From Warburgia ugandensis (Eukaryota; Streptophyta; Magnoliopsida; Canellales; Canellaceae): DNA of 64,000 nt. Of this stretch, positions 5,588-64,000 are shown one piece after another. Below the pieces are notes generated by a model. It did not search any database, was not told where the DNA came from, and worked only from the letters and a program-made list of their open reading frames with translations. Made by a program: the position numbers and the translations under genes. Numbering within the stretch: the first letter of the stretch is position 1; every line of letters starts with the position of its first letter. The DNA lies in contig CP141127.1 of the NCBI GenBank assembly GCA_035236585.1, positions 52,078,001 to 52,142,000 of the forward strand, given 5' to 3'.

Positions 5588-5589
5588 CT

Positions 5590-6073: not shown

Positions 6074-6074
6074 G

Positions 6075-6569: not shown

Positions 6570-6570
6570 G

Positions 6571-16884: not shown

Positions 16885-16918
<34 letters not shown>

Positions 16919-24400: not shown

Positions 24401-26319
24401 TAAATTGCCAGACATTGTGCCGGGGATCTTCCGATGACTTGAAAAGGTTTTGACGGTGTGTTTGGGACAATCCCAGGACTCGAAGTGATTTAACATTGTG
24501 TCTAGGGACTTCGATGGACATGTAATGTTTTGACAGTGTGTCATGAGATTTCCAAGAGCTTAAAGTGCCATACATAGTACCAAAAGGATCAGTTAATGGC
24601 TTGAAAACGTTTTTTTGGGATCCTCCAAAAACTCGACGTGATTTGACTTTATACCAAGGGACTTCCAAGGACATGTATTGTTCTGAAATTGTTCCTTGGG
24701 ACTTTTCAGTGCTTAACTAGTTTGAAGGATGTGTTGAAGATCATCGATAATTTGAAAAGTTTAGACATTCTGTTTAGGATCATCCCAGGAATTTGTGCTT
24801 AAGGACTTTGATGGAAATGTAAAGCTTTGACATCCGAGTCACTGAGACGATTTCAATAGATGTTAGGGGTCAAAATTTGTGATGTTAAAATTGATTTTCT
24901 TTAGAACGTCCATCACCGTACATTCTTCCTGCTGTTATTTGCAATTTTACACCACCGAGTTGACATCCGATCGAAAGGATTTTTCATGGACTCGATCTTG
25001 TTACCTCTTTGGAGATGATGAATGGTTGGGATCATTGTTCTAAGATATCGCGCTCTCCAAATCAGCTCCTCTCCTTTTCTTCCTCTGCCTTCTCTCTCCT
25101 CTCTATTCTTCTTTGTTCATCGCATTTCTCACTCTCTCTCTCTCTCATCATTCAGGCAATAGACCATATGGGTTCGTCTTGATTCTTCCTTAAGAGAGGT
25201 GGTGGGGTGCCAATATCATAATGGCTCCTCCTTTACAAGTAATAAATTTTACTTTTTCCTTTATTCATTATTTAGACTTTTAACCTTTTGTAATATGTTT
25301 TAATTAAATGATTGTGTTCCCTACATGATAATGAGTGCATGGCCCCCTCGGGTTTTTTAAATTTTGAGTGGGTCCTACACGGTAAGACTACAAAATATCC
25401 TTTAACGTACCCGGACATTGCGCCAAGGATCATGCAACGGTTTGAAAAGATTAGACATTGTGCTCGAAAACATCATTTGGCCTTTTGCCTATGAACTTCC
25501 AAGGACATGTAATGTTTCAATCATGTGCCATGGGATTTCACATCATTTAATCTGCCCATACATTGTGCCTAGCATCATTCAGCTTCTTAAGGCTAGACAT
25601 TGTGTTTGGGAACATCCTAGTGCTTGGAGTGATTTGACTTTGGTGCTGAGGGGACTTCCACGGGCATGCAATCTTTTGACATACTTTCCAACATTCATAT
25701 TGCTTGAATATCATGCCTATGTCGATCCTATGGCATGAAATAGTGTAGACATTGATTGTGGGAATATCCTAGGACTAGATGTGATTTGACATACGTCCAT
25801 AGATATGTAATGCTGGCGACATTGTGTCATGGTACTTCCAAGAGCTCAAAGTGCTCATATGTCGTGCCAAAAGGATCATCCTATGGCTCATAGTGATTTG
25901 ACGTCGTGGCTAGGGGACTTCCCACGACATGCACTATTTTCAAATTATGAGTTGGGACACCCTAATGCTTAGCTTGCTCAAAAAATGTGGCAAGGATCAT
26001 GAAATGGCTTGAAATGTTTGGGTTTGGGAACATTCCAGGACTCTTTAAGTGATTCGACTTTGTGCCCAAGGACTTCGATGGACATGAAATATTTTGACAT
26101 TGAGCTGTGGGTCTTCCCAAAGCTTGAAGTTCTCAGACATTGTGTCGAAAGGATCATCCAGTGGCCGAAAAAGTTTGGACGATGTATTTCGGAACATACC
26201 TGGGCTGAAAGTAATTTGACATTGTTTGTTGGAAATTCCCATCACTTAAGTTGCTCAGACATTGTGCCAACAATCATCCAATTGCTTGAAAAGATTAGAC
26301 GTTGTGTTTGGCAACATCT
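24401..26319 (-). repeat. Higher-order unit B copy 5 (type B, truncated)
   Basis: Carries the type B marks of copy 3 (TTTGGGACAATCC, GATGTGTTGAAG, GGAATTTGTGC). Passenger DNA at about 24,834-25,400. After about 25,750 it diverges more from the other copies, and it stops at about 26,319, roughly 215 bp short of a full unit, where satellite orientation flips. Confidence 0.9.
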
Positions 26320-28490
26320 GATCACTTTAAGTTGTTAGAATGGCAAGGTATAATGCCAAAGCATTACATGTCCTTGGATGTCCCAAGGCATAAAGTCAAA
26401 TATGTTTGAGTACTCGGATGTTGTCAAGCACAATGGTCAGACTTTTCAAGCCGTTGGTTGATCCCTGGCACAATGTCTTTGCACGTTAAGCCCTGACAAG
26501 TCCCGTGGTAAAGCATCAAAACATACGTTCCTTGGTAGTCCCGAAGCAACATGTCAAATCACTTCCAGTCACGGGAAGTTTCCAGGCACAACGTCTAAGA
26601 ATTTTGAGCCTTTCAATGATCCCTGGCACAATTTCTGAGCGCTTTAAAAGTGGAAGTCCCAGGGCCAAATTTTAGAGCCAAACATGTCCGAGCGAGTGCC
26701 TAGGCCCAAAGTTAAATCACTTCGAGTCCTGGGAGGTTGCCAAATGCAATGTTTAGACTTTTCAAGCCATTGGACGATCCTTTGTGGAATGATGAGATCA
26801 TACTAGATCCCATCACTATTAACTCCATCCAACTCATCCATAGGATTTGATCATGCTTGATCTTACTGATCGAGAAAGTTCCTTTACAAATTTTAGGTTA
26901 CTTCTACCGCAAAGGGTTGATTTCTTCTTTTATCATAGATCTGTCATATTAAACCCTCAATTTCACATATCCTTGTCATTATAACGTAAATAGATCAGAT
27001 CCTTATCATCTCAGGTCTTCGAGATCATGGAAGTAAAAGTCTTATTTTCTTTAAACAAAAGTTTCTCGCAATATTTCCTAAATTCTATTATTTCATATGC
27101 AATTAGACATCATAAGCTTTTCGTAGCTTCTTTCCAGTCGTGATTTGGGGCTCAGATGAGTCCGGACTCAAGTTAGAAGTCCGCAGTCGTTCGACGGTCC
27201 AAATTTGATCTGGCTGTTAGAACAGGACATAACCAGCGGAACCGGTCATCCCGCCCTATTACCACCAGTGGAAATGAGGTGGTGACATGTAAATGGTGAG
27301 ACGATCTAGACCAGACTGTAAAATCGCCATCCTGCATTTCCGCTTCAAATTGGGCCATCATATCTCCCTGAAATTTGATGTCATTTCATATCTAAGGGTT
27401 TTGAACCCTTCTGAATCTATTCGACGGTTCGGATTTTTCATGTGAGACCTCCATGATGCAGATATGGAGGCATTTTCTCTAGAACTTGATTTTCCAAAGC
27501 ATTAACAGAAAATCCAATCCGGTGAAAATAAAATGTATAAAAATGACATAAACTGAATCCTGCACGATACCCTCCTGCCTGATTTGCCCAGAATTGATGC
27601 CAAAATAAATAAATCCTCGCCGTATGCCATAACACACCAAATAAATCTTGATTTGTCCTTTTCTGTTTATTGAATCGTTGGATCTTGAAATTACATTGGG
27701 GTTCCAGGGAATTTAGAGCAATATGGGCGGTGCGATTTGTGAAATTTGATCTGGAATGGAGTGGCTAATTGAAATTACGGCTCTTGGTACTATTTTAGAG
27801 AGAGGAGAGAGAAAGTGGGAAAACAAGAGAGATTAGGGGACATGGGGGAGGAGTTTTGCGCTAATTTTCCAGGGGAGAGTAGGGGATTTCGTGCTGAAGT
27901 TGCAAAAATTTTGTAAAAATTTCAGATTTATTTGTAGGCAAGTTTTTAATTTTAAATTAATTTTTCATAAAAATATGCTTCTTTCTTTTTATTATTTTAT
28001 TTATGGGCCAAGTTTCCACCTCCATTGCAATCCACTAGTGCATCGATCAATTATTCTTTCTTCCAGAAAATTGCCCCACTTTCTGGGCCCCACTTTCATG
28101 TGAAAAAGCATTTGGCCCTTTTACTCATAAAAATGGAGAAAAATGGATATTATTTATCCAAACTCGGATTCTAGTGGACTCAATGGTGCCGGAATCGATT
28201 TTTCGAGTACCTTTCTATTTTTTGAATAAATTCCAAACATTCAAATCTTAAATCTTGGTTATGGATGAAAATGACTGTTTTACCCTTTTGTGTAGAAAAT
28301 TGAGATTTTTTTGTTCAAACTCAGAATTTGAAGAAATCAGGGTCGTTTGATTCGATCTTTCATGTGGAATCTGCCTACGATTTAATCTCTATGAAATGAT
28401 ATTTGCTTTTAAGCTAATGTTCCAGCCCGATCTTTTGAAATTTCAATCTCTCATTGATTTTCTCAAATCAATTTGAGAAAATTGGGGTTC
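26320..28490 (+). repeat. Higher-order unit C copy 0 (partial, first of the array)
   Basis: First copy of the 2.29-kb unit, missing about 129 bp at its left edge. The satellite portion is 26,320-26,789 and the LTR-like passenger about 26,790-28,495. It has private variants: AATGGCAAGG near 26,338, TTACATTGGGG near 27,691 and GGGCGGTGCG near 27,725. The last two recur in copy 13. A 62-codon - strand frame spans 27,173-27,361. Confidence 0.9.
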
Positions 28491-28495
28491 TAACA
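26790..28495 (-). mobile_element. Solo-LTR-like passenger of unit C (reference copy)
   Basis: On the - strand it begins TGTTAGAACCCCAATTTTC and ends ATGATCTCATCA, so it has TG...CA termini over about 1.7 kb. It has AT-rich DNA with a possible TATA-like stretch (CCATAAATAAAATA), a CT-rich stretch (CTTTCTCTCTCC) and no protein domain. Flanking satellite gives GAATG on the left and CAATG on the right, a possible 5-bp duplication with one mismatch, although satellite subunits share this motif anyway. No primer-binding site or internal region follows, which suggests a solo LTR. An unrelated passenger cannot be excluded. Confidence 0.55.
28458..28481. repeat. Palindrome near the LTR-like terminus
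   Basis: Perfect 11-bp arms TTTTCTCAAAT and ATTTGAGAAAA separated by CA, 14 bp inside the passenger's right end. It is kept in the copies I read across the array, with the flanking GGGGTTCTAACA. Confidence 0.8.
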
Positions 28496-30785
28496 CAATG
28501 CCAAAATAATGCATGTCCTTAAAAGTCCCCGGCTCAAGCCCAAATCACATGGAGTCTGAGAAGCTTCCAGACACATCATTCTAAATTTTAAAAGCCTTTG
28601 TATGACTCTTGGCACAATGTCTGATCACTTTAAGTTGTTAGAATCGCAAGGTATGATGCCAAAGCATTACATTTCCTTGGATGTCCCAAGGCATAAAGTC
28701 AAATATGTTTGAGTACTGGGATGTTCTCAAGCACAACGTTCAGACTTTTCAAGCCGTTGGTTGATCCTTGGCACAATGTCTTTGCACGTTAAGCCCTGAC
28801 AAGTCCCGTGGTAAAGCATCAAAACATACGTTCCTTGGTAGTCCCGAAGCAACATGTCAAATCGCTTCGAGTCACGGGAAGTTTCCAGGCACAACGTCTA
28901 GGAATTTTCAGCCTTTCAATGATCCCTGGCACAATTTCTGAGCGCTTTAAAAGTGGAAGTCCCAGGGCCAAATTTTAAAACCAAACATGTCCGAGCGAGT
29001 GCCTAGGCCCAAAGTTAAATCACTTCGAGTCCTGGGAGGTTGCAAAATGCAATGTTTAGACTTTTCATGCCATTGGAGGATCCTTTGTGGAATGATGAGA
29101 TCATACTAGATCCCATCACTATTAACTCCATCCAACTCATCCATAGTATTTGATCATGCTTGATCTTACCGATCGAGAAAGTTCCTTTACAAATTTTAGG
29201 TTACTTCTACCACAAAGGGTTGATTTCTTCTTTTATCATAGATGTGTCATATTAAACCCTCAATTTCACATATCCTTGTCATTATAACGTAAATAGATCA
29301 GATCCTTAAGGTCTGAGGTCTTCGAGATCATGGAAGTAAGAGTCTTATTTTCTTTAAACAAAAGTTTCTTGCAATATTTCCTAAATTCTATTATTTCATA
29401 TGCAATTAGACATCATAAGCTTTTCGTAGCTTCTTTCCAGTCGTGATTTGGGGCTCAGATGAGTCCGGACTCAAGTTAGAAGTCCGCAGTCGTTCGACGG
29501 TCCAAATTTGATCTGGCTGTTAGAACAGGACAAAACCGGCGGAACCGGTCATCCCGCCCTATTACCACCAGTGGAAATGAGGTGGTGACCTGTAAATGGT
29601 GAGACGATCTAGACCAGACTGTAAAATCACCATCCTGCATTTCTGCTTCAAATTGGGTCATCATATCTCCGCGAAATTTGATGTTATTTCATATCTAAGG
29701 GTTCTGAACCCTTTTGAATCTATTCGACGGTTCGGATTTTTCATGTGAGACCTCCATGATGCAGATATGGAGGCATTTTCTCTAGAACTTGATTTTCCAA
29801 AGCATTAACAGAAAATCCAATCGGGTGAAATTAAAATGACATAAACTGAATCCTGCACGATACCCTCCTGCCTGATTTGCTCAGAATTGATGCCAAAATA
29901 AATAAATCCTCGCCGTATGCCATAACACACCAAATAAATCTTGATTTGTCCTTTTCTGTTTATTGAATCGTTGGATCTTGAAATTACTTTGGGGTTCCAG
30001 GGAATTTAGAACAATATGGACGGTGGGATTTGTGAAATTTGATCTGGAATGGAGTGGCTAATTGAACTTACGGCTCTTGGTACTATTTTAGAGAGAGGAG
30101 AGAGAAAGTGGGAAAAACAGAGAGATTAGGGGACATGGGGGAGGAGTTTTGCTCTAATTTTCCAGGGGAGAGTAGGGGATTTCGTGCTGAAGTTGCAAAA
30201 ATTTTGTAAAAATTTCAGATTTATTTGTAGGCAAGTTTTTTAATTTTAAATTAATTTTTCATAAAAATGTGCTTCTTTCTTTTTATTATTTTATTTATGG
30301 GCCAAGTTTCCACCTCCATTGCAATCCACTAGTGCATCGATCAATTATTCTTTCTTCCAGAAAATTGCCCCACTTTCTGGGCCCCACTTTCATGTGAAAA
30401 AAGCATTTGGCCCTTTTACTCATAAAAATGGAGAAAAATGGATATTATTTATCCAAACTCGGATTCTAGTGGACTCAATGGTGCCGCAATCGATTTTTCG
30501 AGTACCTTTCTATTTTTTGAATAAATTCCAAACATTCAAATCTTAAATCTTGGTTATGGATGAAAATGACTGTTTTACCCTTTTGTGTAGAAAATTGAGA
30601 TTTTTTTGTTCAAACTCAGAATTTGAAGAAATCAGGGTCGTTTGATTCGATCTTTCATGTGGAATCTGCCTACGATTTAATCTCTATGAAATGATATTTG
30701 CTTTTAAGCTAATGTTCCAGCCCGATCTTTTGAAATTTCAATCTCTCATTGATTTTCTCAAATCAATTTGAGAAAATTGGGGTTC
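28491..30785 (+). repeat. Higher-order unit C copy 1 (2,295 bp)
   Basis: Satellite 28,491-29,092 (15 subunits of about 40 bp in the order s2-s3-s4, then s1-s4 three times), passenger about 29,093-30,790. Copies 1-4 share AAAATGTGC where the others have AAAATATGC. Has CTTACCGATCGAGA near 29,165. Confidence 0.93.
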
Positions 30786-33081
30786 TAACACAATGCCAAA
30801 ATAATGCATGTCCTTAAAAGTCCCCGTGCTCAAGCCCAAATCACATGGAGTCTGAGAAGCTTCCAGACACATCATTCTAAATTTTAAAAGCCTTTGTATG
30901 ACTCTTGGCACAATGTCTGATCACTTTAAGTTGTTAGAATCGCAAGGTATGATGCCAAAGCATTACATTTCCTTGGATGTCCCAAGGCATAAAGTCAAAT
31001 ATGTTTGAGTACTGGGATGTTCTCAAGCACAACGTTCAGACTTTTCAAGCCGTTGGTTGATCCTTGGCACAATGTCTTTGCACGTTAAGCCCTGACAAGT
31101 CCCGTGGTAAAGCATCAAAACATACGTTCCTTGGTAGTCCCGAAGCAACATGTCAAATCGCTTCGAGTCACGGGAAGTTTCCAGGCACAACGTCTAGGAA
31201 TTTTGAGCCTTTCAATGATCCCTGGCACAATTTCTGAGCGCTTTAAAAGTGGAAGTCCCAGGGCCAAATTTTAAAACCAAACATGTCCGAGCGAGTGCCT
31301 AGGCCCAAAGTTAAATCACTTCGAGTCCTGGGAGGTTGCAAAATGCAATGTTTAGACTTTTCATGCCATTGGAGGATCCTTTGTGGAATGATGAGATCAT
31401 ACTAGATCCCATCACTATTAACTCCATCCAACTCATCCATAGTATTTGATCATGCTTGATCTTACTGATCGGGAAAGTTCCTTTACAAATTTTAGGTTAC
31501 TTCTACCACAAAGGGTTGATTTCTTCTTTTATCATAGATGTGTCATATTAAACCCTCAATTTCACATATCCTTGTCATTATAACGTAAATAGATCAGATC
31601 CTTAAGGTCTGAGGTCTTCGAGATCATGGAAGTAAGAGTCTTATTTTCTTTAAACAAAAGTTTCTTGCAATATTTCCTAAATTCTATTATTTCATATGCA
31701 ATTAGACATCATAAGCTTTTCGTAGCTTCTTTCCAGTCGTGATTTGGGGCTCAGATGAGTCCGGACTCAAGTTAGAAGTCCGCAGTCGTTCGACGGTCCA
31801 AATTTGATCTGGCTGTTAAAACAGGACAAAACCGGCGGAACCGGTCATCCCGCCCTATTACCACCAGTGGAAATGAGGTGGTGACCTGTAAATGGTGAGA
31901 CGATCTAGACCAGACTGTAAAATCACCATCCTGCATTTCTGCTTCAAATTGGGCCATCATATCTCCGCGAAATTTGATGTTATTTCATATCTAAGGGTTC
32001 TGAACCCTTTTGAATCTATTCGACGGTTCGGATTTTTCATGTGAGACCTCCATGATGCAGATATGGAGGCATTTTCTCTAGAACTTGATTTTCCAAAGCA
32101 TTAACAGAAAATCCATTCGGGTGAAATTAAAATGACATAAACTGAATCCTGCACGATACCCTCCTACCTGATTTGCTCAGAATTGATGCCAAAATAAATA
32201 AATCCTCGCCGTATGCCATAACACACCAAATAAATCTTGATTTGTCCTTTTCTGTTTATTGAATCGTTGGATCTTGAAATTACTTTGGGGTTCCAGGGAA
32301 TTTAGAACAATATGGACGGTGGGATTTGTGAAATTTGATCTGGAATGGAGTGGCTAATTGAACTTACGGCTCTTGGTACTATTTTAGAGAGAGGAGAGAG
32401 AAAGTGGGAAAAACAGAGAGATTAGGGGACATGGGGGAGGAGTTTTGCTCTAATTTTCCAGGGGAGAGTAGGGGATTTCGTGCTGAAGTTGCAAAAATTT
32501 TGTAAAAATTTCAGATTTATTTGTAGGCAAGTTTTTTAATTTTAAATTAATTTTTCATAAAAATGTGCTTCTTTCTTTTTATTATTTTATTTATGGGCCA
32601 AGTTTCCACCTCCATTGCAATCCACTAGTGCATCGATCAATTATTCTTTCTTCCAGAAAATTGCCCCACTTTCTGGGCCCCACTTTCATGTGAAAAAAGC
32701 ATTTGGCCCTTTTACTCATAAAAATGGAGAAAAATGGATATTATTTATCCAAACTCGGATTCTAGTGGACTCAATGGTGCCGCAATCGATTTTTCGAGTA
32801 CCTTTCTATTTTTTGAATAAATTCCAAACATTCAAATCTTAAATCTTGGTTATGGATGAAAATGACTGTTTTACCCTTTTGTGTAGAAAATTGAGATTTT
32901 TTTGTTCAAACTCAGAATTTGAAGAAATCAGGGTCGTTTGATTCGATCTTTCATGTGGAATCTGCCTACGATTTAATCTCTATGAAATGATATTTGCTTT
33001 TAAGCTAATGTTCCAGCCCGATCTTTTGAAATTTCAATCTCTCATTGATTTTCTCAAATCAATTTGAGAAAATTGGGGTTC
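30786..33081 (+). repeat. Higher-order unit C copy 2 (2,296 bp)
   Basis: Passenger about 31,389-33,086. Nearly identical to copies 1 and 3. Has CTTACTGATCGGGA, the commonest version of that site. The 62-codon - strand frame is intact at 31,772-31,960. Confidence 0.93.
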
Positions 33082-35378
33082 TAACACAATGCCAAAATAA
33101 TGCATGTCCTTAAAGTTCCCCAGGCTCAAGCCCAAATCACATGGAGTCTGAGAAGCTTCCAGACACATCATTCTAAATTTTAAAAGCCTTTGTATGACTC
33201 TTGGCACAATGTCTGATCACTTTAAGTTGTTAGAATCGCAAGGTATGATGCCAAAGCATTACATTTCCTTGGATGTCCCAAGGCATAAAGTCAAATATGT
33301 TTGAGTACAGGGATGTTCTCAAGCACAACGCTCAGACTTTTCAAGCCGTTGGTTGATCCTTGGCACAATGTCTTTGCACGTTAAGCCCTGACAAGTCCCG
33401 TGGTAAAGCATCAAAACATACGTTCCTTGGTAGTCCCGAAGCAACATGTCAAATCGCTTCGAGTCACGGGAAGTTTCCAGGCACAACGCCTAGGAATTTT
33501 GAGCCTTTCAATGATCCCTGGCACAATTTCTGAGCGCTTTAAAAGTGGAAGTCCCAGGGCCAAATTTTAAAACCAAACATGTCCGAGCGAGTGCCTAGGC
33601 CCAAAGTTAAATCACTTCGAGTCCTGGGAGGTTGCAAAATGCAATGTTTAGACTTTTCATGCCATTGGAGGATCCTTTGTGGAATGATGAGATCATACTA
33701 GATCCCATCACTATTAACTCCATCCAACTCATCCATAGTATTTGATCATGCTTGATCTTACTGATCGGGAAAGTTCCTTTACAAATTTTAGGTTACTTCT
33801 ACCACAAAGGGTTGATTTCTTCTTTTATCATAGATGTGTCATATTAAACCCTCAATTTCACATATCCTTGTCATTATAACGTAAATAGATCAGATCCTTA
33901 AGGTCTGAGGTCTTCGAGATCATGGAAGTAAGAGTCTTATTTTCTTTAAACAAAAGTTTCTTGCAATATTTCCTAAATTCTATTATTTCATATGCAATTA
34001 GACATCATAAGCTTTTCGTAGCTTCTTTCCAGACGTGATTTGGGGCTCAGATGAGTCCGGACTCAAGTTAGAAGTCCGCAGTCGTACGACGGTCCAAATT
34101 TGATCTGGCTGTTAAAACAGGACAAAACCGGCGGAACCGGTCATCCCGCCCTATTACCACCAGTGGAAATGAGGTGGTGACCTGTAAATGGTGAGACGAT
34201 CTAGACCAGACTGTAAAATCACCATCCTGCATTTCTGCTTCAAATTGGGCCATCATATCTCCGCGAAATTTGATGTTATTTCATATCTAAGGGTTCTGAA
34301 CCCTTCTGAATCTATTCGACGGTTCGGATTTTTCATGTGAGACCTCCATGATGCAGATATGGAGGCATTTTCTCTAGAACTTGATTTTCCAAAGCATTAT
34401 CCATTCGGGTGAAATTAAAATGTATAAAAATGACATAAACCGAATCCCGCACGATACCCTCCCGCCGGATTGGCTCGGAATTGATGCCAAAATAAATAAA
34501 TCCTCGCCGTATGCCATAACACACCAAATAAATCTTGATTTGTCCTTTTCTGTTTATTGAATCGTCCATCTTGAAAGTACTTTGGGGTTCCAAGGAATTT
34601 AGAACAATATGGACGGTGGGATTTGTGAAATTTGATCTGGAATGGAGTGGCTAATTGAACTTACGGCTCTTGGTACTATTTTAGAGAGAGGAGAGAGAAA
34701 GTGGGAAAAACAGAGAGATTAGGGGACATGGGGGAGGAGTTTTGCTCTAATTTTCCAGGGGAGAGTAGGGGATTTCGTGCTGAAGTTGCAAAAATTTTGT
34801 AAAAATTTCAGATTTATTTGTAGGCAAGTTTTTTAATTTTAAATTAATTTTTCATAAAAATGTGCTTCTTTCTTTTTATTATTTTATTTATGGGCCAAGT
34901 TTCCACCTCCATTGCAATCCACTAGTGCATCGATCAATTATTCTTTCTTCCAGAAAATTGCCCCACTTTCTGGGCCCCACTTTCATGTGAAAAAAGCATT
35001 TGGCCCTTTTACTCATAAAAATGGAGAAAAATGGATATTATTTATCCAAACTCGGATTCTAGTGGACTCAATGGTGCCGCAATCGATTTTTCGAGTACCT
35101 TTCTATTTTTTGAATAAATTCCAAACATTCAAATCTTAAATCTTGGTTATGGATGAAAATGACTGTTTTACCCTTTTGTGTAGAAAATTGAGATTTTTTT
35201 GTTCAAACTCAGAATTTGAAGAAATCAGGGTCGTTTGATTCGATCTTTCATGTGGAATCTGCCTACGATTTAATCTCTATGAAATGATATTTGCTTTTAA
35301 GCTAATGTTCCAGCCCGATCTTTTGAAATTTCAATCTCTCATTGATTTTCTCAAATCAATTTGAGAAAATTGGGGTTC
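33082..35378 (+). repeat. Higher-order unit C copy 3 (2,297 bp)
   Basis: Passenger about 33,685-35,383. Differs from copy 2 mainly at 34,390-34,570, where it has a CpG-rich version (CTCCCGCCGGATTGGCTCGG) and ATCGTCCATCTTG. The rest is close to identical. Confidence 0.93.
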
Positions 35379-37676
35379 TAACACAATGCCAAAATAATGC
35401 ATGTCCTTAAAAGTCCCCGGGCTCAAGCCCAAATCACATGGAGTCTGAGAAGCTTCCAGACACATCATTCTAAATTTTAAAAGCCTTTGTATGACTCTTG
35501 GCACAATGTCTGATCACTTTAAGTTGTTAGAATCGCAAGGTATGATGCCAAAGCATTACATTTCCTTGGATGTCCCAAGGCATAAAGTCAAATATGTTTG
35601 AGTACTGGGATGTTCTCAAGCACAACGTTCAGACTTTTCAAGCCGTTGGTTGATCCTTGGCACAATGTCTTTGCACGTTAAGCCCTGACAAGTCCCGTGG
35701 TAAAGCATCAAAACATACGTTCCTTGGTAGTCCCGAAGCAACATGTCAAATCGCTTCGAGTCACGGGAAGTTTCCTGGCACAACGTCAAGGAATTTTGAG
35801 CCTTTCAATGATCCCTGGCACAATTTCTGAGCGCTTTAAAAGTGGAAGTCCCAGGGCCAAATTTTAAAACCAAACATGTCCGAGCGAGTGCCTAGGCCCA
35901 AAGTTAAATCACTTCGAGTCCTGGGAGGTTGCAAAATGCAATGTTTAGACTTTTCATGCCATTGGAGGATCCTTTGTGGAATGATGAGATCATACTAGAT
36001 CCCATCACTATTAACTCCATCCAACTCATCCATAGTATTTGATCATGCTTGATCTTACTGATCGGGAAAGTTCCTTTACAAATTTTAGGTTACTTCTACC
36101 ACAAAGGGTTGATTTCTTCTTTTATCATAGATGTGTCATATTAAACCCTCAATTTCACATATCCTTGTCATTATAACGTAAATAGATCAGATCCTTAAGG
36201 TCTGAGGTCTTCGAGATCATGGAAGTAAGAGTCTTATTTTCTTTAAACAAAAGTTTCTTGCAATATTTCCTAAATTCTATTATTTCATATGCAATTAGAC
36301 ATCATAAGCTTTTCGTAGCTTCTTTCCAGTCGTGATTTGGGGCTCAGATGAGTCCGGACTCAAGTTAGAAGTCCGCAGTCGTTCGACGGTCCAAATTTGA
36401 TCGGCTGTTAAAACAGGACAAAACCGGCGGAACCGGTCATCCCGCCCTATTACCACCAGTGGAAATGAGGTGGTGACCTGTAAATGGTGAGACGATCTAG
36501 ACCAGACTGTAAAATCACCATCCTGCATTTCTGCTTCAAATTGGGCCATCATATCTCCGCGAAATTTGATGTTATTTCATATCTAAGGGTTCTGAACCCA
36601 TCTGAATCTATTCGACGGTTCGGATTTTTCATGTGAGACCTCCATGATGCAGATATGGAGGCATTTTCTCTAGAACTTGATTTTCCAAAGCATTATCCAT
36701 TCGGGTGAAATTAAAATGTCATAAAAATGACATAAACCGAATCCCGCACGATACCCTCCTCGCCCGATTTGCTCATAATTGATGCCAAAATAAATAAATC
36801 CTCGCCGTATGCCATAACACACCAAATAAATCTTGATTTGTCCTTTTCTGTTTATTGAATCGTTGGATCTTGAAATTACTTTGGGGTTCCAGGGAATTTA
36901 GAACAATATGGACGGTGGGATTTGTGAAATTTGATCTGGAATGGAGTGGCTAATTGAACTTACGACTCTTGGTACTATTTTAGAGAGAGGAGAGAGAAAG
37001 AGGGAAAACAGAGAGATTAGGGGACATGGGGGAGGAGTTTTGCTCTAATTTTCCAGGGGAGAGTAGGGGATTTCGTGCTGAAGTTGCAAAAATTTTGTAA
37101 AAATTTCAGATTTATTTGTAGGCAAGTTTTTTAATTTTAAATTAATTTTTCATAAAAATGTGCTTCTTTCTTTTTATTATTTTATTTATGGGCCAAGTTT
37201 CCACCTCCATTGCAATCCACTAGTGCATCGATCAATTATTCTTTCTTCCAGAAAATTGCCCCACTTTCTGGGCCCCACTTTCATGTGAAAAAAGCATTTG
37301 GCCCTTTTACTCATAAAAATGGAGAAAAATGGATATTATTTATCCAAACTCGGATTCTAGTGGACTCAATGGTGCCGCAATCGATTTTTCGAGTACCTTT
37401 CTATTTTTTGAATAAATTCCAAACATTCAAATCTTAAATCTTGGTTATGGATGAAAATGACTGTTTTACCCTTTTGTGTAGAAAATTGAGATTTTTTTGT
37501 TCAAACTCAGAATTTGAAGAAATCAGGGTCGTTTGATTCGATCTTTCATGTGGAATCTGCCTACGATTTAATCTCTATGAAATGATATTTGCTTTTAAGC
37601 TAATGTTCCAGCCCGATCTTTTGAAATTTCAATCTCTCATTGATTTTCTCAAATCAATTTGAGAAAATTGGGGTTC
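35379..37676 (+). repeat. Higher-order unit C copy 4 (2,298 bp)
   Basis: Passenger about 35,982-37,681. A one-base deletion (TTGATCGGCTG near 36,398) shifts the - strand frame. Keeps a CpG-rich CCTCGCCCGATTTGC near 36,757. Confidence 0.93.
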
Positions 37677-51362: not shown

Positions 51363-53645
51363 TAACACAATGCCAAAATAATGCATGTCCTTAAAAGTCC
51401 CCGGGCTCAAGCCCAAATCACATGGAGTCTGAGAAGCTTCCAGACACATCATTCTAAATTTTAAAAGCCTTTGTATGACTCTTGGCACAATGTCTGATCA
51501 CTTTAAGTTGTTAGAATCGCAAGGTATGATGCCAAAGCATTACATTTCCTTGGATGTCCCAAGGCATAAAGTCAAATATGTTTGAGTACTGGGATGTTCT
51601 CAAGCACAACGTTCAGACTTTTCAAGCCGTTGGTTGATCCTTGGCACAATGTCTTTGCACGTTAAGCCCTGACAAGTCCCGTGGTAAAGCATCAAAACAT
51701 ACGTTCCTTGGTAGTCCCGAAGCAACATGTCAAATCGCTTCGAGTCACGGGAAGTTTCCTGGCACAACGCCTAGGAATTTTGAGCCTTTCAATGATCCCT
51801 GGCACAATTTCGGAGCGCTTTAAAAGTGGAAGTCCCAGGGCCAAATTTTAAAACCAAACATGTCCGAGCGAGTGCCTAGGCCCAAAGTTAAATCACTTCG
51901 AGTCCTGGGAGGTTGCAAAATGCAATGTTTAGACTTTTCATGCCATTGGAGGATCCTTTGTGGAATGATGAGATCATACTAGATCCCATCACTATTAACT
52001 CCATCCAACTCATCCATAGTATTTGATCATGCTTGATCTTACTGATCGGGAAAGTTCCTTTACAAATTTTAGGTTACTTCTACCACAAAGGGTTGATTTC
52101 TTCTTTTATCATAGATGTGTCATATTAAACCCTCAATTTCACATATCCTTGTCATTATAACGTAAATAGATCAGATCCTTAAGGTCTGAGGTCTTCGAGA
52201 TCATGGAAGTAAGAGTCTTATTTTCTTTAAACAAAAGTTTCTTGCAATATTTCCTAAATTCTATTATTTCATATGCAATTAGACATCATAAGCTTTTCGT
52301 AGCTTCTTTCCAGCCGTGATTTGGGGCTCGATGAGTCCTGACTCAAGTTAGAAGTCCGCAATGCTCGACGGTCCAAATTTGATCCGGCTGTTAGAACAGA
52401 CAAAATCATGAACCGGTCATCCCGCCCTATTACCACCAGTGGAAATGAGGTGGTGACCTGTAAATGGTGAGACGATCTAGACCAGACTGTAAAATCACCA
52501 TCCTGCATTTCTGCTTCAAATTGGGCCATCATATCTCCGCGAAATTTGATGTTATTTCATATCTAAGGGTTCTGAACCCTTTTGAATCTATTCGACGGTT
52601 CGGATTTTTCATGTGAGACCTCCATGATGCAGATATGGAGGCATTTTCTCTAGAACTTGATTTTCCAAAGCATTATCCATTCGGGTGAAATTAAAATGAC
52701 ATAAACTGAGTCCTGCACGATAACCTCCTGCCTGATTTGCTCAGAATTGATGCCAAAATAAATAAATCCTCGCCGTATGCCATAACACACCAAATAAATC
52801 TTGATTTGTCCTTTTCTGTTTATTGAATCGTTGGATCTTGAAATTACTTTGGGGTTCCAGGGAATTTAGAACAATATGGACGGTGGGATTTGTGAAATTT
52901 GATCTGGAATGGAGTGGCTAATTGAAATTACGGCTCTTGGTACTATTTTAGAGAGAGGAGAGAGAAAGTGGGAAAACAAGAGAGATTAGGGGACATGGGG
53001 GAGGAGTTTTGCGCTAATTTTCCAGGGGAGAGTAGGGGATTTCGTGCTGAAGTTGCAAAAATTTTGTAAAAATTTCAGATTTATTTGTAGGCAAGTTTTT
53101 TAATTTTAAATTAATTTTTCATAAAAATATGCTTCTTTCTTTTTATTATTTTATTTATGGGCCAAGTTTCCACCTCCATTGCAATCCACTAGTGCATCGA
53201 TCAATTATTCTTTCTTCCAGAAAATTGCCCCACTTTCTGGGCCCCACTTTCATGTGAAAAAAGCATTTGGCCCTTTTACTCATAAAAATGGAGAAAAATG
53301 GATATTATTTATCCAAACTCGGATTCTAGTGGACTCAATGGTGCCGGAATCGATTTTTCGAGTACCTTTCTATTTTTTGAGTAAATTCCAAACATTCAAA
53401 TCTTAAATCTTGGTTATGGATGAAAATGACTGTTTTACCCTTTTGTGTAGAAAATTGAGATTTTTTTGTTCAAACTCAGAATTTGAAGAAATCAGGGTCG
53501 TTTGATTCGATCTTTCATGTGGAATCTGCCTACGATTTAATCTCTATGAAATGATATTTGCTTTTAAGCTAATGTTCCAGCCCGATCTTTTGAAATTTCA
53601 ATCTCTCATTGATTTTCTCAAATCAATTTGAGAAAATTGGGGTTC
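51363..53645 (+). repeat. Higher-order unit C copy 11 (2,283 bp)
   Basis: Passenger about 51,966-53,650. Has GGGGCTCGATGAGTCCTGAC near 52,323 (shared with copy 13), CCGCAATGCTCGACGG (shared with copies 8 and 13) and a private AAAATCATGAACCGG. Confidence 0.93.
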
Positions 53646-55941
53646 TAACACAATGCCAAAATAATGCATGTCCTTAAAAGTCCCCGGGCTCAAGCCCAAA
53701 TCACATGGAGTCTGAGAAGCTTCCAGACACATCATTCTAAATTTTAAAAGCCTTTGTATGACTCTTGGCACAATGTCTGATCACTTTAAGTTGTTAGAAT
53801 CGCAAGGTATGATGCCAAAGCATTACATTTCCTTGGATGTCCCAAGGCATAAAGTCAAATATGTTTGAGTACTGGGATGTTCTCAAGCACAACGTTCAGA
53901 CTTTTCAAGCCGTTGGTTGATCCTTGGCACAATGTCTTTGCACGTTAAGCCCTGACAAGTCCCGTGGTAAAGCATCAAAACATACGTTCCTTGGTAGTCC
54001 CGAAGCAACATGTCAAATCGCTTCGAGTCACGGGAAGTTTCCAGGCACAACGTCTAGGAATTTTCAGCCTTTCAATGATCCCTGGCACAATTTCTGAGCG
54101 CTTTAAAAGTGGAAGTCCCAGGGCCAAATTTTAAAACCAAACATGTCCGAGCGAGTGCCTAGGCCCAAAGTTAAATCACTTCGAGTCCTGGGAGGTTGCA
54201 AAATGCAATGTTTAGACTTTTCATGCCATTGGAGGATCCTTTGTGGAATGATGAGATCATACTAGATCCCATCACTATTAACTCCATCCAACTCATCCAT
54301 AGTATTTGATCATGCTTGATCTTACCGATCGAGAAAGTTCCTTTACAAATTTTAGGTTACTTCTACCACAAAGGGTTGATTTCTTCTTTTATCATAGATG
54401 TGTCATATTAAACCCTCAATTTCACATATCCTTGTCATTATAACGTAAATAGATCAGATCCTTAAGGTCTGAGGTCTTCGAGATCATGGAAGTAAGAGTC
54501 TTATTTTCTTTAAACAAAAGTTTCTTGCAATATTTCCTAAATTCTATTATTTCATATGCAATTAGACATCATAAGCTTTTCGTAGCTTCTTTCCAGTCGT
54601 GATTTGGGGCTCAGATGAGTCCGGACTCAAGTTAGAAGTCCGCAGTCGTTCGACAGTCCAAATTTGATCAGGCTGTTAGAACAGGACAAAACCGGTCATC
54701 CCGCCCTATTACCACCAGTGGAAATGAGGTGGTGACCTGTAAATGGTGAGACGATCTAGACCAGACTGTAAAATCACCATCCTGCATTTCTGCTTCAAAT
54801 TGGGTCATCATATCTCCGCGAAATTTGATGTTATTTCATATCTAAGGGTTCTGAACCCTTTTGAATCTATTCGACGGTTCGGATTTTTCATGTGAGACCT
54901 CCATGATGCAGATATGGAGGCATTTTCTCTAGAACTTGATTTTCCAAAGCATTAACATAAAATCCAATCGGGTGAAATTAAAATGTATAAAAATGACATA
55001 AACTGAATCCCGCACGATACCCTCCTGCCTGATTTGCTCAGAATTGATGCCAAAATAAATAAATCCTCGCCGTATGCCATAACACACCAAATAAATCTTG
55101 ATTTGTCCTTTTCTGTTTATTGAATCGTTGGATCTTGAAATTACTTTGGGGTTCCAGGGAATTTAGAACAATATGGACGGTGGGATTTGTGAAATTTGAT
55201 CTGGAATGGAGTGGCTAATTGAACTTACGGCTCTTGGTACTATTTTAGAGAGAGGAGAGAGAAAGTGGGAAAAACAGAGAGATTAGGGGACATGGGGGAG
55301 GAGTTTTGCTCTAATTTTCCAGGGGAGAGTAGGGGATTTCGTGCTGAAGTTGCAAAAATTTTGTAAAAATTTCAGATTTATTTGTAGGCAAGTTTTTTAA
55401 TTTTAAATTAATTTTTCATAAAAATATGCTTCTTTCTTTTTATTATTTTATTTATGGGCCAAGTTTCCACCTCCATTGCAATCCACTAGTGCATCGATCA
55501 ATTATTCTTTCTTCCGGAAAATTGCCCCACTTTCTCGGGCCCCACTTTCATGTGAAAAAGCATTTGGCCCTTTTACTCATAAAAATGGAGAAAATGGATA
55601 TTATTTATCCAAACTCGGATTCTAGTGGACTCAATGGTGCCGAAATCGATTTTTCGAGTACCTTTCTATTTTTTGAGTAAATTCCAAACATTCAAATCTT
55701 AAATCTTGGTTATGGATGAAAATGACTGTTTTACCCTTTTGTGTAGAAAATTGAGATGTTTTTGTTCAAACTCAAAATTTGAAGAAATCAGGGTCGTTTG
55801 ATTCGATCTTTCATGTGGAATCTGCCTACGATTTAATCTCTATGAAATGATATTTGCTTTTAAGCTAATGTTCCAGCCCGATCTTTTGAAATTTCAATCT
55901 GTCATTGATTTTCTCAAATCAATTTGAGAAAATTGGGGTTC
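53646..55941 (+). repeat. Higher-order unit C copy 12 (2,296 bp)
   Basis: Passenger about 54,249-55,946. Private changes include CTTTCTCGGGCCCC near 55,531 and GAGATGTTTTTG near 55,753. Missing CGGCGGAA at the ACCGGTCATCC site. Confidence 0.93.
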
Positions 55942-58223
55942 TAACACAATGCCAAAATAATGCATGTCCTTAAAAGTCCCCGGGCTCAAGCCCAAATCAC
56001 ATGGAGTCTGAGAAGCTTCCAGACACATCATTCTAAATTTTAAAAGCCTTTGTATGACTCTTGGCACAATGTCTGATCACTTTAAGTTGTTAGAATCGCA
56101 AGGTATGATGCCAAAGCATTACATTTCCTTGGATGTCCCAAGGCATAAAGTCAAATATGTTTGAGTACTGGGATGTTCTCAAGCACAACGTTCAGACTTT
56201 TCAAGCCGTTGGTTGATCCTTGGCACAATGTCTTTGCACGTTAAGCCCTGACAAGTCCCGTGGTAAAGCATCAAAACATACGTTCCTTGGTAGTCCCGAA
56301 GCAACATGTCAAATCGCTTCGAGTCACGGGAAGTTTCCAGGCACAACGTCTAGGAATTTTGAGCCTTTCAATGATCCCTGGCACAATTTCTGAGCGCTTT
56401 AAAAGTGGAAGTCCCAGGGCCAAATTTTAAAACCAAACATGTCCGAGCGAGTGCCTAGGCCCAAAGTTAAATCACTTCGAGTCCTGGGAGGTTGCAAAAT
56501 GCAATGTTTAGACTTTTCATGCCATTGGAGGATCCTTTGTGGAATGATGAGATCATACTAGATCCCATCACTATTAACTCCATCCAACTCATCCATAGTA
56601 TTTGATCATGCTTGATCTTACTGATCGGGAAAGTTCCTTTACAAATTTTAGGTTACTTCTACCACAAAGGGTTGATTTCTTCTTTTATCATAGATGTGTC
56701 ATATTAAACCCTCAATTTCACATATCCTTGTCATTATAACGTAAATAGATCGAATCCTTAAGGTCTGAGGTCTTCGAGATCATGGAAGTAAGAGTCTTAT
56801 TTTCTTTAAACAAAAGTTTCTTGCAATATTTCCTAAATTCTATTATTTCATATGCAATTAGACATCATAAGCTTTTCGTAGCTTCTTTCCAGCCGTGATT
56901 TGGGGCTCGATGAGTCCTGACTCAAGTTAGAAGTCCGCAATGCTCGACGGTCCAAATTTGATCCGCTGTTAGAACAGACAAAACCGCGGAACCGGTCATC
57001 CCGCCCTATTACCACCAAGTGGAAATGAGGTGGTGACATGTAAATGGTGAGACGATCTAGACCAGACTGTAAAATCACCATCCTGCATTTCTGCTTCAAA
57101 TTGGGCCATCATATCTCCGCGAAATTTGATGTTATTTCATATCTAAGGGTTCTGAATCTATTCGACGGTTCGGATTTTTCATGTGAGACCTCCATGATGC
57201 AGATATGGAGGCATTTTCTGTAGAACTTGATTTTCCAAAGCATTAACAGAAAATCCAATCCGGTGAAATTAAAATGACATAAACTGAATCCTGCACGATA
57301 CCCTCCTGCCTGATTTGCCCAGAATTGATGCCAAAATAAATAAATCCTCGCCGTATGCCATAACACACCAAATAAATCTTGATTTGTCCTTTTCTGTTTA
57401 TTGAATCGTTGGATCTTGAAATTACATTGGGGTTCCAGGGAATTTAGAGCAATATGGGCGGTGCGATTTGTGAAATTTGATCTGGAATGGAGTGGCTAAT
57501 TGAACTTACGGCTCCTGGTACTATTTTAGAGAGAGGAGAGAGAAAGTGGGAAAAACAGAGAGATTAGGGGACATGGGAGAGGAGTTTTGCTCTAATTTTC
57601 CAGGGGAGAGTAGGGGATTTCGTGCTGAAGTTGCAAAAATTTTGTAAAAATTTCAGATTTATTTGTAGGCAAGTTTTTTAATTTTAAATTAATTTTTCAT
57701 AAAAATATGCTTCTTTCTTTTTATTATTTTATTTATGGGCCGAGTTTCCACCTACATTGAAATCTACTAGTGCATCGATCAATTATTCTTTCTTCCAGAA
57801 AATTGCCCCACTTTCTGGGCCCCACTTTCATGTGAAAAAAGCATTTGGCCCTTTTACTCATAAAAATGGAGAAAATTGGATATTATTTATCCAAACTCCG
57901 ATTCTAGTGTACTCAATGGTGCCGGAATCGATTTTTCGAGTACCTTTCTATTTTTTGAGTAAATTCCAAACATTCAAATCTTAAATCTTGGTTATGGATG
58001 AAAATGACTGTTTTACCCTTTTGTGTAGAAAATTGAGATTTTTTTGTTCAAACTCATAATTTAAAGAAATCAGGGTCGTTTGATTCGATCTTTCATGTGG
58101 AATCTGCCTACGATTTAATCTCTATGAAATGATATTTGCTTTTAAGCTAATGTTCCAGCCCGATCTTTTGAAATTTCAATCTCTCATTGATTTTCTCAAA
58201 TCAATTTGAGAAAATTGGGGTTC
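55942..58223 (+). repeat. Higher-order unit C copy 13 (2,282 bp, mosaic)
   Basis: Passenger about 56,545-58,228. Combines variants of copy 11 (GCTCGATGAGTCCTGAC), copy 0 (AATCCGGTG, GCCCAGAATTG, TTACATTGGGG, GGGCGGTGCG at 57,255-57,470) and copy 5 (CCGAGTTTCCACCTACATTG near 57,740). Confidence 0.93.
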
Positions 58224-60508
58224 TAACACAATGCCAAAATAATGCATGTCCTTAAAAGTCCCCGGGCTCAAGCCCAAATCACATGGAGTCTGAGAAGCTT
58301 CCAGACACATCATTCTAAATTTTAAAAGCCTTTGTATGACTCTTGGCACAATGTCTGATCACTTTAAGTTGTTAGAATCGCAAGGTATGATGCCAAAGCA
58401 TTACATTTCCTTGGATGTCCCAAGGCATAAAGTCAAATATGTTTGAGTACTGGGATGTTCTCAAGCACAACGTTCAGACTTTTCATGCCGTTGGTTGATC
58501 CTTGGCACAATGTCTTTGCACGTTAAGCCCTGACAAGTCCCGTGGTAAAGCATCAAAACATACGTTCCTTGGTAGTCCCGAAGCAACATGTCAAATCGCT
58601 TCGAGTCACGGGAAGTTTCCTGTGCACAACGTCTAAGAATTTTGAGCCTTTCAATGATCCCTGCACAATTTCTGAGCGCTTTAAAAGTGGAAGTCCCAGG
58701 GCCAAATTTTAAAACCAAACATGTCCGAGCGAGTGCCTAGGCCCAAAGTTAAATCACTTCGAGTCCTGGGAGGTTGCAAAATGCAATGTTTAGACTTTTC
58801 ATGCCATTGGAGGATCCTTTGTGGAATGATGAGATCATACTAGATCCCATCACTATTAACTCCATCCAACTCATCCATAGTATTTGATCATGCTTGATCT
58901 TACCGATCGAGAAAGTTCCTTTACAAATTTTAGGTTACTTCTACCACAAAGGGTTGATTTCTTCTTTTATCATAGATGTGTCATATTAAACCCTCAATTT
59001 CACATATCCTTGTCATTATAACGTAAATAGATCGATCCTTAAGGTCTGAGGTCTTCGAGATCATGGAAGTAAGAGTCTTATTTTCTTTAAACAAAAGTTT
59101 CTTGCAATATTTCCTAAATTCTATTATTTCATATGCAATTAGACATCATAAGCTTTTCGTAGCTTCTTTCCAGTCGTGATTTGGGGCTCAGATGAGTCCG
59201 GACTCAAGTTAGAAGTCCGCAGTCGTTCGACGGTCCAAATTTGATCTGGCTGTTAGAACAGGACAAAACCGGTCATCCCGCCCTATTACCACCAGTGGAA
59301 ATGAGGTGGTGACCTGTAAATGGTGAGACGATCTAGACCAGACTGTAAAATCACCATCCTGCATTTCTGCTTCAAATTGGGCCATCATATCTCCGCGAAA
59401 TTTGATGTTATTTCATATCTAAGGGTTCTGAACCCTTTTGAATCTATTCGACGGTTCGGATTTTTCATGTGAGACCTCCATGATGCAGATATGGAGGCAT
59501 TTTCTCTAGAACTTGATTTTCCAAAGCATTAACAGAAAATCCAATCGGGTGAAATTAAAATGACATAAACTGAATCCTGCACGATACCCTCCTGCCTGAT
59601 TTGCTCAGAATTGATGCCAAAATAAATAAATCCTCGCCGTATGCCATAACACACCAAATAAATCTTGATTTGTCCTTTTCTGTTTATTGAATTCTTCCCG
59701 CATGAAATTACTTTGGGGTTCCAGGGAATTTAGAACAATATGGACGGTGGGATTTGTGAAATTTGATCTGGAATGGAGTGGCTAATTGAACTTACGGCTC
59801 TTGGTACTATTTTAGAGAGAGGAGAGAGAAAGTGGGAAAACAAGAGAGATTAGGGGACATGGGGGAGGAGTTTTGCGCTAATTTTCCAGGGGAGAGCAGG
59901 GGATTTCTTGTTGAAGTTGCAAAAATTTTGTAAAAATTTCAGATTTATTTGTAGGTAAGTTTTTTATTTTTAAATTAATTTTTCATAAAAATATGCTTCT
60001 TTGTTTTTATTATTTTATTTATGGGCCAAGTTTCCACCTCCATTGCAATCCACTAGTGCATCGATCAATTATTCTTTCTTCCAGAAAATTGCCCCACTTT
60101 CTGGGCCCCACTTTCATGTGAAAAAGCATTTGGCCCTTTTACTCATAAAAATGGAGAAAAATGGATATTATTTATCCAAACTCGGATTCTAGTGGACTCA
60201 ATGGTGCCGTAATCGATTTTTCGAGTACCTTTCTATTTTTTGAGTAAATTCCAAACATTCAAATCTTAAATCTTGGTTATGGATGAAAATGACTGTTTTA
60301 CCCTTTTGTGTAGAAAATTGAGATTTTTTTGTTCAAACTCATAATTTAAAGAAATCAGGGTCGTTTGATTCGATCTTTCATGTGGAATCTGCCTACGATT
60401 TAATCTCTATGAAATGATATTTGCTTTTAAGCTAATGTTCCAGCCCGATCTTTTGAAATTTCAATCTCTCATTGATTTTCTCAAATCAATTTGAGAAAAT
60501 TGGGGTTC
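58224..60508 (+). repeat. Higher-order unit C copy 14 (2,285 bp)
   Basis: Passenger about 58,827-60,513. Private GAATTCTTCCCGCATG near 59,689 where other copies have GAATCGTTGGATCTTG, and GTAGGTAAGTTTTTTATTT near 59,952. Confidence 0.93.
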
Positions 60509-62793
60509 TAACACAATGCCAAAATAATGCATGTCCTTAAAAGTCCCCGGGCTCAAGCCCAAATCACATGGAGTCTGAGAAGCTTCCAGACACATCATTC
60601 TAAATTTTAAAAGCCTTTGTATGACTCTTGGCACAATGTCTGATCACTTTAAGTTGTTAGAATCGCAAGGTATGATGCCAAAGCATTACATTTCCTTGGA
60701 TGTCCCAAGGCATAAAGTCAAATATGTTTGAGTACTGGGATGTTCTCAAGCACAACGTTCAGACTTTTCAAGCCGTTGGTTGATCCTTGGCACAATGTCT
60801 TTGCACGTTAAGCCCTGACAAGTCCCGTGGTAAAGCATCAAAACATACGTTCCTTGGTAGTCCCGAAGCAACATGTCAAATCGCTTCGAGTCACGGGAAG
60901 TTTCCTGGCACAACGTCTAGGAATTTTCAGCCTTTCAATGATCCCTGGCACAATTTCTGAGCGCTTTAAAAGTGGAAGTCCCAGGGCCAAATTTTAAAAC
61001 CAAACATGTCCGAGCGAGTGCCTAGGCCCAAAGTTAAATCACTTCGAGTCCTGGGAGGTTGCAAAATGCAATGTTTAGACTTTTCATGCCATTGGAGGAT
61101 CCTTTGTGGAATGATGAGATCATACTAGATCCCATCACTATTAACTCCATCCAACTCATCCATAGTATTTGATCATGCTTGATCTTACCGATCGAGAAAG
61201 TTCCTTTACAAATTTTAGGTTACTTCTACCACAAAGGGTTGATTTCTTCTTTTATCATAGATGTGTCATATTAAACCCTCAATTTCACATATCCTTGTCA
61301 TTATAACGTAAATAGATCAGATCCTTAAGGTCTGAGGTCTTCGAGATCATGGAAGTAAGAGTCTTATTTTCTTTAAACAAAAGTTTCTTGCAATATTTCC
61401 TAAATTCTATTATTTCATATGCAATTAGACATCATAAGCTTTTCGTAGCTTCTTTCCAGTCGTGAATTGGGGCTCAGATGAGCCGGACTCAAGTTAGAAG
61501 TCCGCAGTCGTTCGATGGTCCAAATTTGATCCGACTGTTAGAACAGGACAAAACAGGCAGAACCGGTCATCCCGCCCTATTACCACCAGTGGAAATGAGG
61601 TGGTGACATGTAAATGGTGAGACGATCTAGACCAGACTGTAAAATCGCCATCCTGCATTTCCGCTTCAAATTGGGCCATCATATCTCCGCGAAATTTGAT
61701 GTTATTTCATATCTAAGGGTTCTGAATCTATTCGACGGTTCGGATTTTTCATGTGAGACCTCCATGATGCAGATATGGAGGCATTTTCTCTAGAACTTGA
61801 TTTTCCAAAGCATTAACAGAAAATCCAATCGGGTGAAATTAAAATGACATAAACTGAATCCTGCACGATACCCTCCTGCCTGATTTGCTCAGAATTGATG
61901 CCAAAATAAATAAATCCTCGCCGTATGCCATAACACACCAAATAAATCTTGATTTGTCCTTGTCTGTTTATTGAATCGTTGGATCTTGAAATTACTTTGG
62001 GGTTCCAGGGAATTTAGAACAATATGGACGGTGGGATTTGTGAAATTTGATCTGGAATGGAGTGGCTAATTGAAATTACGGCTCTTGGTACTATTTTAGA
62101 GAGAGGAGAGAGAAAGTGGGAAAACAAGAGAGATTAGGGGACATGGGGGAGGAGTTTTGCTCTAATTTTCCAGGGGAGAGCAGGGGATTTCGTGCTGAAG
62201 TTGCAAAAATTTTGTAAAAATTTCAGATTTATTTGTAGGCAAGTTTTTTAATTTTAAATTAATTTTTCATAAAAATATGCTTCTTTCTTTTTATTATTTT
62301 ATTTATGGGCCAAGTTTCCACCTCCATTGCAATCCACTAGTGCATCGATCAATTATTCTTTCTTCCAGAAAATTGCCCCACTTTCTGGGCCCCACTTTCA
62401 TGTGAAAAAAGCATTTGGCCCTTTTACTCATAAAAATGGAGAAAAATGGATATTATTTATCCAAACTCGGATTCTAGTGGACTCAATGGTGCCGCAATCG
62501 ATTTTTCGAGTACCTTTCTATTTTTTGAGTAAATTCCAAACATTCAAATCTTAAATCTTGGTTATGGATGAAAATGACTGTTTTACCCTTTTGTGTAGAA
62601 AATTGAGATTTTTTTGTTCAAACTCAGAATTTGAAGAAATCAGGGTCGTTTGATTCGATCTTTCATGTGGAATCTGCCTACGATTTAATCTCTATGAAAT
62701 GATATTTGCTTTTAAGCTAATGTTCCAGCCCGATCTTTTGAAATTTCAATCTCTCATTGATTTTCTCAAATCAATTTGAGAAAATTGGGGTTC
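60509..62793 (+). repeat. Higher-order unit C copy 15 (2,285 bp)
   Basis: Passenger about 61,112-62,798. Shares GAACAGGACAAAACAGGCAG with copy 16 near 61,541 and has CTTACCGATCGAGA like copies 1, 12, 14 and 16. The 62-codon - strand frame is intact at 61,494-61,682. Confidence 0.93.
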
Positions 62794-64000
62794 TAACACA
62801 ATGCCAAAATAATGCATGTCCTTAAAAGTCCCCGGGCTCAAGCCCAAATCACATGGAGTCTGAGAAGCTTCCAGACACATCATTCTAAATTTTAAAAGCC
62901 TTTGTATGACTCTTGGCACAATGTCTGATCACTTTAAGTTGTTAGAATCGCAAGGTATGATGCCAAAGCATTACATTTCCTTGGATGTCCCAAGGCATAA
63001 AGTCAAATATGTTTGAGTACTGGGATGTTCTCAAGCACAACGTTCAGACTTTTCAAGCCGTTGGTTGATCCTTGGCACAATGTCTTTGCACGTTAAGCCC
63101 TGACAAGTCCCGTGGTAAAGCATCAAAACATACGTTCCTTGGTAGTCCCGAAGCAACATGTCAAATCGCTTCGAGTCACGGGAAGTTTCCAGGCACAACG
63201 TCTAGGAATTTTCAGCCTTTCAATGATCCCGGCACAATTTCTGAGCGCTTTAAAAGTGGAAGTCCCAGGGCCAAATTTTAAAACCAAACATGTCCGAGCG
63301 AGTGCCTAGGCCCAAAGTTAAATCACTTCGAGTCCTGGGAGGTTGCAAAATGCAATGTTTAGACTTTTCATGCCATTGGAGGATCCTTTGTGGAATGATG
63401 AGATCATACTAGATCCCATCACTATTAACTCCATCCAACTCATCCATAGTATTTGATCATGCTTGATCTTACCGATCGAGAAAGTTCCTTTACAAATTTT
63501 AGGTTACTTCTACCACAAAGGGTTGATTTCTTCTTTTATCATAGATGTGTCATATTAAACCCTCAATTTCACATATCCTTGTCATTATAACGTAAATAGA
63601 TCAGTTCCTTAAGGTCTGAGGTCTTCGAGATCATGGAAGTAAGAGTCTTATTTTCTTTAAACAAAAGTTTCTTGCAATATTTCCTAAATTCTATTATTTC
63701 ATATGCAATTAGACATCATAAGCTTTTCGTAGCTTCTTTCCAGTCGTGATTTGGGGCTTAGATGAGTCCGGACTCAAGTTAGAAGTCCGCAGTCGTTCGA
63801 CGGTCCAAATTTGATCCGGCTGTTAGAACAGGACAAAACAGGCAGAACCGGTCATCCCGCCCTATTACCACCAGTGGAAATGAGGTGGTGACCTGTAAAT
63901 GGTGAGACGATCTAGACCAGACTGTAAAATCACCATCCTGCATTTCTGCTTCAAATTGGGCCATCATATCTCCGCGAAATTTGATGTTATTTCATATCTA
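62794..64000 (+). repeat. Higher-order unit C copy 16 (cut by the window edge)
   Basis: Satellite part 62,794-63,395, then the first 605 bp of the passenger. The array continues beyond the window, so its full length is unknown. Confidence 0.93.

Follow-up and report, generated by a model that had tools for sequence, protein, structure and literature searches.

A satellite and an LTR-like block amplified together as a higher-order repeat of about 2.29 kb

How can an old tandem repeat, whose copies have already drifted apart, give rise to a new and homogeneous one? This question is raised by a stretch of 64,000 nucleotides of contig CP141127.1 (assembly GCA_035236585.1, positions 52,078,001 to 52,142,000 of the forward strand), called here the window. 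From 26317 to its end at 64000 it is filled by a composite tandem array, in which a satellite made of 40-bp subunits is joined to an unrelated block of about 1.7 kb resembling a long terminal repeat (LTR) of a retrotransposon. The array is real; it spans at least 37.7 kb, reaches the window end and consists of 16 complete head-to-tail units with a partial one at either end. We consider it quite probably a young compound satellite, that is, a higher-order repeat which would have arisen through capture of an element, unequal exchange and homogenisation.

The units were counted by anchors at the edges of the 1.7-kb block. The left-edge anchor occurs 17 times and the right-edge anchor 16 times, all with zero mismatches, which gives 16 complete units and a 17th cut at 64000. 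Both breakpoints between satellite and block are identical in 16 of 16 complete units, and all 16 have the same compound-monomer arrangement, satellite plus unrelated DNA in one fixed order. The initial annotation had proposed at least 16 tandem units with the satellite and a block of about 1.7 kb in a fixed position, amplified as a single unit, and these counts bear it out on both points. Complete units measure 2,263–2,303 bp, with an LTR-like part of 1,672–1,713 bp and a satellite part of 590–591 bp. The length range given earlier (2,262–2,298 bp) was near to this but missed unit 1, which has 2,303 bp, and the array, correctly recognized, begins not at 26320 but at 26317, where homology to the unit opens with 466 bp of satellite. 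Unit size had also been described as held within limits. The lengths are indeed narrow, but they differ by short indels, nearly all within the 1.7-kb part, so no special size constraint is required.

All units lie on the forward strand. The leading partial unit (26317..26782) is the 466 bp of satellite that starts from an inverted junction, and is 96.6% identical to positions 126–591 of the unit satellite. It is followed by the array-edge unit 1 (26783..29085; LTR-like part 26783–28495, satellite 28496–29085) and by unit 2 (29086..31381; LTR-like part 29086–30790, satellite 30791–31381). The next ones, each given with the end of its LTR-like part, are unit 3 (31382..33677; 33086), unit 4 (33678..35974; 35383), unit 5 (35975..38271; 37681), unit 6 (38272..40534; 39943), the shortest with 2,263 bp, unit 7 (40535..42811; 42221), unit 8 (42812..45104; 44513), unit 9 (45105..47396; 46806) and unit 10 (47397..49673; 49082). 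The remaining complete units are unit 11 (49674..51958; 51367), unit 12 (51959..54241; 53650), unit 13 (54242..56537; 55946), unit 14 (56538..58819; 58228), unit 15 (58820..61104; 60513) and unit 16 (61105..63388; 62798). Unit 17 (63389..64000), incomplete at the window end, has 612 bp with 99.0% identity to unit 2.

How far have the units diverged? Pairwise divergence of the 16 complete units averages 1.41% (range 0.48–2.80%), a similarity far beyond chance and a homogeneity like that of the Sobo satellite described below. The highest divergences include those of edge unit 1, which inner units 8 and 9 nearly equal. No two units are identical: all 16 LTR-like parts are distinct, the 16 satellite parts include 15 distinct sequences and are at most 2.03% apart, and both shared and private variants are present. 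Could the assembler have multiplied one or a few real units? The window ends within the array and the whole reading rests on the assembly, but the lack of identical units counts against the pasting of a single one, and we regard such an expansion as very improbable.

The variants are shuffled among the units. In the four-gamete test 518 of the 1,176 pairs of 49 informative characters fail, the minimum number of recombination intervals (Rm) is 18, and indels at alignment columns 448, 621, 723, 749 and 1353 occur in reshuffled combinations. Divergence shows no clear growth with distance between units (Mantel r 0.139, p 0.14). Taken together, these patterns suggest that the units trade sequence along the whole visible 37 kb, provided that they were not mixed by misassembly; assembly error in a repeat could partly account for the shuffled variants. 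At alignment columns 774–812 of the units (26783–63388) we observed CCG-type letters in units 4, 5, 8 and 9 and CTG in most units, as if most had descended from a copy stripped of its CpG sites. Methylation decay as the source of variation was considered and dropped, since changes of the C-to-T type at CpG and CHG make up 18 of the 146 changes in the LTR part.

What does the satellite part tell us about the origin of the unit? The old satellite at 1–14361 consists of four types of 40-bp subunit in a repeat of about 160 bp, with regular steps between neighbours in 215 of 260 cases. Four subunit strings, typed by eye from this left array, were used to tile unit 2 and the leading partial unit. 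The satellite of unit 2 comprises 15 subunits in the register 1234 1234 1234 123, and the leading partial one reads 1234 1234 123; diverged monomers thus stand in a fixed order, as tiled in unit 2, within near-identical units, as in a higher-order repeat. One subunit, of type 4, is missing in unit 2 at the position of the 1.7-kb block. Type 3 is directly followed by type 1 in 8 of the 62 type-3 subunits of the old array, so the block may have been inserted at such a 3-to-1 site or may have replaced one subunit. Compared with the left array, the unit satellite has 65.9–69.6% identity among the matches listed (30 of 272). This low identity, with the lower regularity of the left array, points to a recent expansion of the composite within older DNA. 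A satellite hidden Markov model (HMM) gathered reverse-strand copies during iteration; its strand labels were therefore left unused, and orientation was taken from BLAST.

The satellite part also varies less than the LTR-like part, with 22 of 592 columns variable versus 137 of 1,720 (Fisher p 3e-4). The difference persists without units 1, 8, 9 and 14 (13/591 versus 85/1,705, p 0.003) and away from indels (11/537 versus 72/1,422, p 0.002). We do not claim a special constraint on the satellite, as 23% of sliding 591-position blocks vary as little, and positions 400–499 and 700–799 of the LTR part, two 100-bp bins, together hold 37 variable positions.

The following course of events would fit the layout. 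An old 40/160-bp satellite, already decayed and probably located in plant heterochromatin, would first have received a single 1.7-kb element, most likely an antisense solo LTR. Satellite copies on either side of the block, paired in register, could then have undergone unequal exchange and so duplicated the LTR together with about 0.6 kb of satellite in tandem, and more unequal exchange with gene conversion between the units may have expanded and homogenised the array. The register kept through the unit fits the prediction of homologous exchange between in-phase satellite copies. A different amplification step, the only point of departure, can be imagined: the composite unit might have been excised as a circle, amplified by rolling circle and reinserted as a ready array, whose variants were later shuffled by gene conversion. 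A circle arising from such exchange would likewise keep the register, and its amplification would equally yield in-phase, near-identical units; breakpoints fixed in all 16 units and similarity without clear decay over distance would suit it as well. However, the circle is not needed. The relatively high divergence of edge unit 1 fits gradual exchange, but units 8 and 9 nearly match it, and the data fail to distinguish between the routes. We leave rolling-circle amplification as a possible, clearly minor alternative to stepwise unequal exchange.

Is the block really an LTR? We think it quite likely, judging from its ends, and it probably derives from the end of a defunct retrotransposon. At the satellite breaks it is bordered by TGTGG...TTCTAACA, which gives TG...CA ends, as a solo LTR would have; its minus strand runs from TGTTAGAACCCCAATTTT to TTCCACA. 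Within the first 26.7 kb the 5′ motif TGTTAGAACCCCAATTTT has a sole match within 3 edits, at 14362, and a further insertion starts there, likewise at a satellite break. The four open reading frames (ORFs) of at least 100 amino acids in the array had no match in Pfam, which fits an LTR, since an LTR need not have one, without singling it out. Hence, of the earlier proposal that a retroelement fragment had become most of a new satellite, the fixed and amplified composite stands, and the retroelement identity is likely rather than proven.

Several points weigh against an LTR. TG and CA near breaks that are placed only to within a few bases are weak evidence on their own, and a 3-edit match somewhere turned up for 12 of 200 shuffled motifs as well, so the weight of the TGTTAGAACCCCAATTTT match rests on its location and not on the match itself. 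Around the block no full target-site duplication of 4–6 bp was found in units 1 and 2, the two of the 16 examined. In unit 1 the best partial one agrees at 4 of 5 bases, its end pair lying 25 bp inward of the right break, and unit 2 lacks it; as a positive control, the element at 3239–6900 yields 5 of 5 bases, CTTTG. For this lack of a duplication the block is filed as LTR-like and not as a solo LTR. The top of 256 empty-site joins (score 62, the next 59) assigns the outer TG and CA to the satellite, which would leave no duplication, and a profile search of the first 26.7 kb found nothing related to the block. We do not claim (G/C)AATG as a target-site duplication. This reading arose where the satellite homology of the HMM ran into TGTGGAATG; 4.4% of random 9-mers score equally and no full match came out of the TG...CA search, which leaves it neither excluded nor established. 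The flank-site scan, by plain Hamming distance, yielded 55 and 79 sites.

The same observations, and the absence of Pfam matches among the array ORFs, would suit a non-coding segment of another kind, either a piece of a transposon or unique DNA, end-joined to the satellite at a break. Satellite orientation also flips on both sides of a neighbouring array, which indicates that breakage and joining occur at this locus. The TG...CA ends and the terminal motif common with the insertion at 14362 speak for an LTR, and we hold end-joined DNA of another kind to be rather improbable.

Directly to the left lies a second composite array (16159..26316, minus strand), in which reverse-oriented satellite alternates with a non-satellite insert of about 0.55 kb. 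Its anchors at 16610, 18452, 20587, 22722 and 24859 delimit units of 1,842, 2,135, 2,135 and 2,137 bp plus a partial one. Units 2–4 are 0.70–0.94% apart, and the two edge units differ by 2.7–11% from the others and from each other. The satellite is forward in 1–14361, reverse in 16.16–26.32 kb and flips back at 26317. By eye, this inverted junction of the two composite arrays has about 3 bp in common (TCT) at the break. The other flip lies across a non-satellite segment of 1.8 kb (about 14362–16150), which begins with TGTAATAACCCC at a satellite break. The insert of about 0.55 kb has a 34-bp stretch in common with this segment in inverse orientation (E 6.5e-6), as well as a pyrimidine-rich stretch, also inverse (E 3.2e-8), for which the composition bias exceeds the score. 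In the one unit examined, a search around the insert for a TG...CA pair with matching flanks found none.

Further left, the forward satellite is interrupted by an LTR-type element of 3.66 kb (3239–6900). It ends in TG...CA, is flanked by a perfect target-site duplication (CTTTG) and is rich in direct and inverted internal repeats; three of its ORFs have no Pfam match above the cut-off. The Pfam scan covered 8 of the 21 ORFs of the window, some of them one residue short. Seven of the 8 gave no match, and ORF 4222–4584 gave one below the cut-off, DUF6600 (E 0.0088, 16.6 bits versus 27). Scans of the window with Rfam (gathering score) and for transfer RNA genes returned 0 matches. One exact 24-mer of the LTR-like part in viral contigs and one of the satellite in genome contigs also had 0 matches, which says little, as these collections hold no plant genomes. 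Six short satellite motifs had no match in the literature searched.

Does the array serve the host? In centromeres, young homogenised units stand next to satellite that is old and decayed, and the neighbourhood here resembles this organisation. Together with a pyrimidine-rich stretch on the putative LTR-sense strand, it could suggest that the array was selected as a functional centromere or as a source of small interfering RNA, with an LTR promoter driving the transcripts. However, on the putative LTR-sense strand of the unit consensus there is no TATAAA or TATA[AT]A, and the lower variability of the satellite is not unusual, so we find such selection unlikely. Most simply, the LTR is a passenger and no host function is needed.

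Two composites, of 2,135 and about 2,290 bp, lie side by side in opposite orientation. One may speculate, with little confidence, that the locus acts as a nursery for compound satellites, where each composite arose from old satellite with a captured insertion, a foreign insertion restarts the amplification of a dead satellite, and the larger unit may mark the border of a nascent centromeric array. If the proposed origin is right, the array offers a clean, sequence-resolved case of a decayed satellite being renewed, in which the subunit register would preserve a record of the exchange that formed the unit. The presence of two different composites would allow testing, in relatives, whether insertions seed higher-order repeats.

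How does this array compare with known satellites? LTR elements of the ATHILA type are reportedly duplicated along with the surrounding satellite in Arabidopsis centromere arrays. Those duplications are scattered, whereas here a regular array of at least 16 units is present. Among tandem repeats containing LTR sequence, CRM1TR and CRM4TR of maize are similar in incorporating it, and gene conversion was proposed as their main amplifier and homogeniser, with unequal exchange and rolling circles not excluded by the authors (PMC3648361). They differ in that their monomers are the element's own LTR and untranslated region, and the part of that account used here mentions no older satellite as a distinct component of the unit. 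In Lathyrus sativus, Ogre-derived satellites also have retrotransposon DNA as their source, but they are described as outgrowths of short tandem repeats that the element itself contains (PMC7004042), as opposed to insertion into a pre-existing satellite here. More LTR-derived satellites are catalogued in PMC9659126 and PMC12628747. The closest in construction among the descriptions consulted is Sobo of Solanum bulbocastanum, whose monomer is part of an LTR retrotransposon plus a tandem repeat (PMC8091179, PMC3648361), as proposed for our unit; the likeness is one of description and not of sequence. Sobo spans about 360 kb in the pericentromere of chromosome 7 (PMC3648361), with copies up to 99% alike (PMC8091179, PMC3648361). 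Its monomer is 4.7 kb long, versus about 2.29 kb here, and comparable long monomers are mentioned for Solanum tuberosum and Secale cereale (PMC8091179). The LTR parent of Sobo has been identified as Sore1; here the first 26.7 kb of the window yielded no parent element. Being built like Sobo-type satellites, the array is, by this comparison, best seen as a further example of a known plant kind, the compound-monomer satellite, and not as a new kind.
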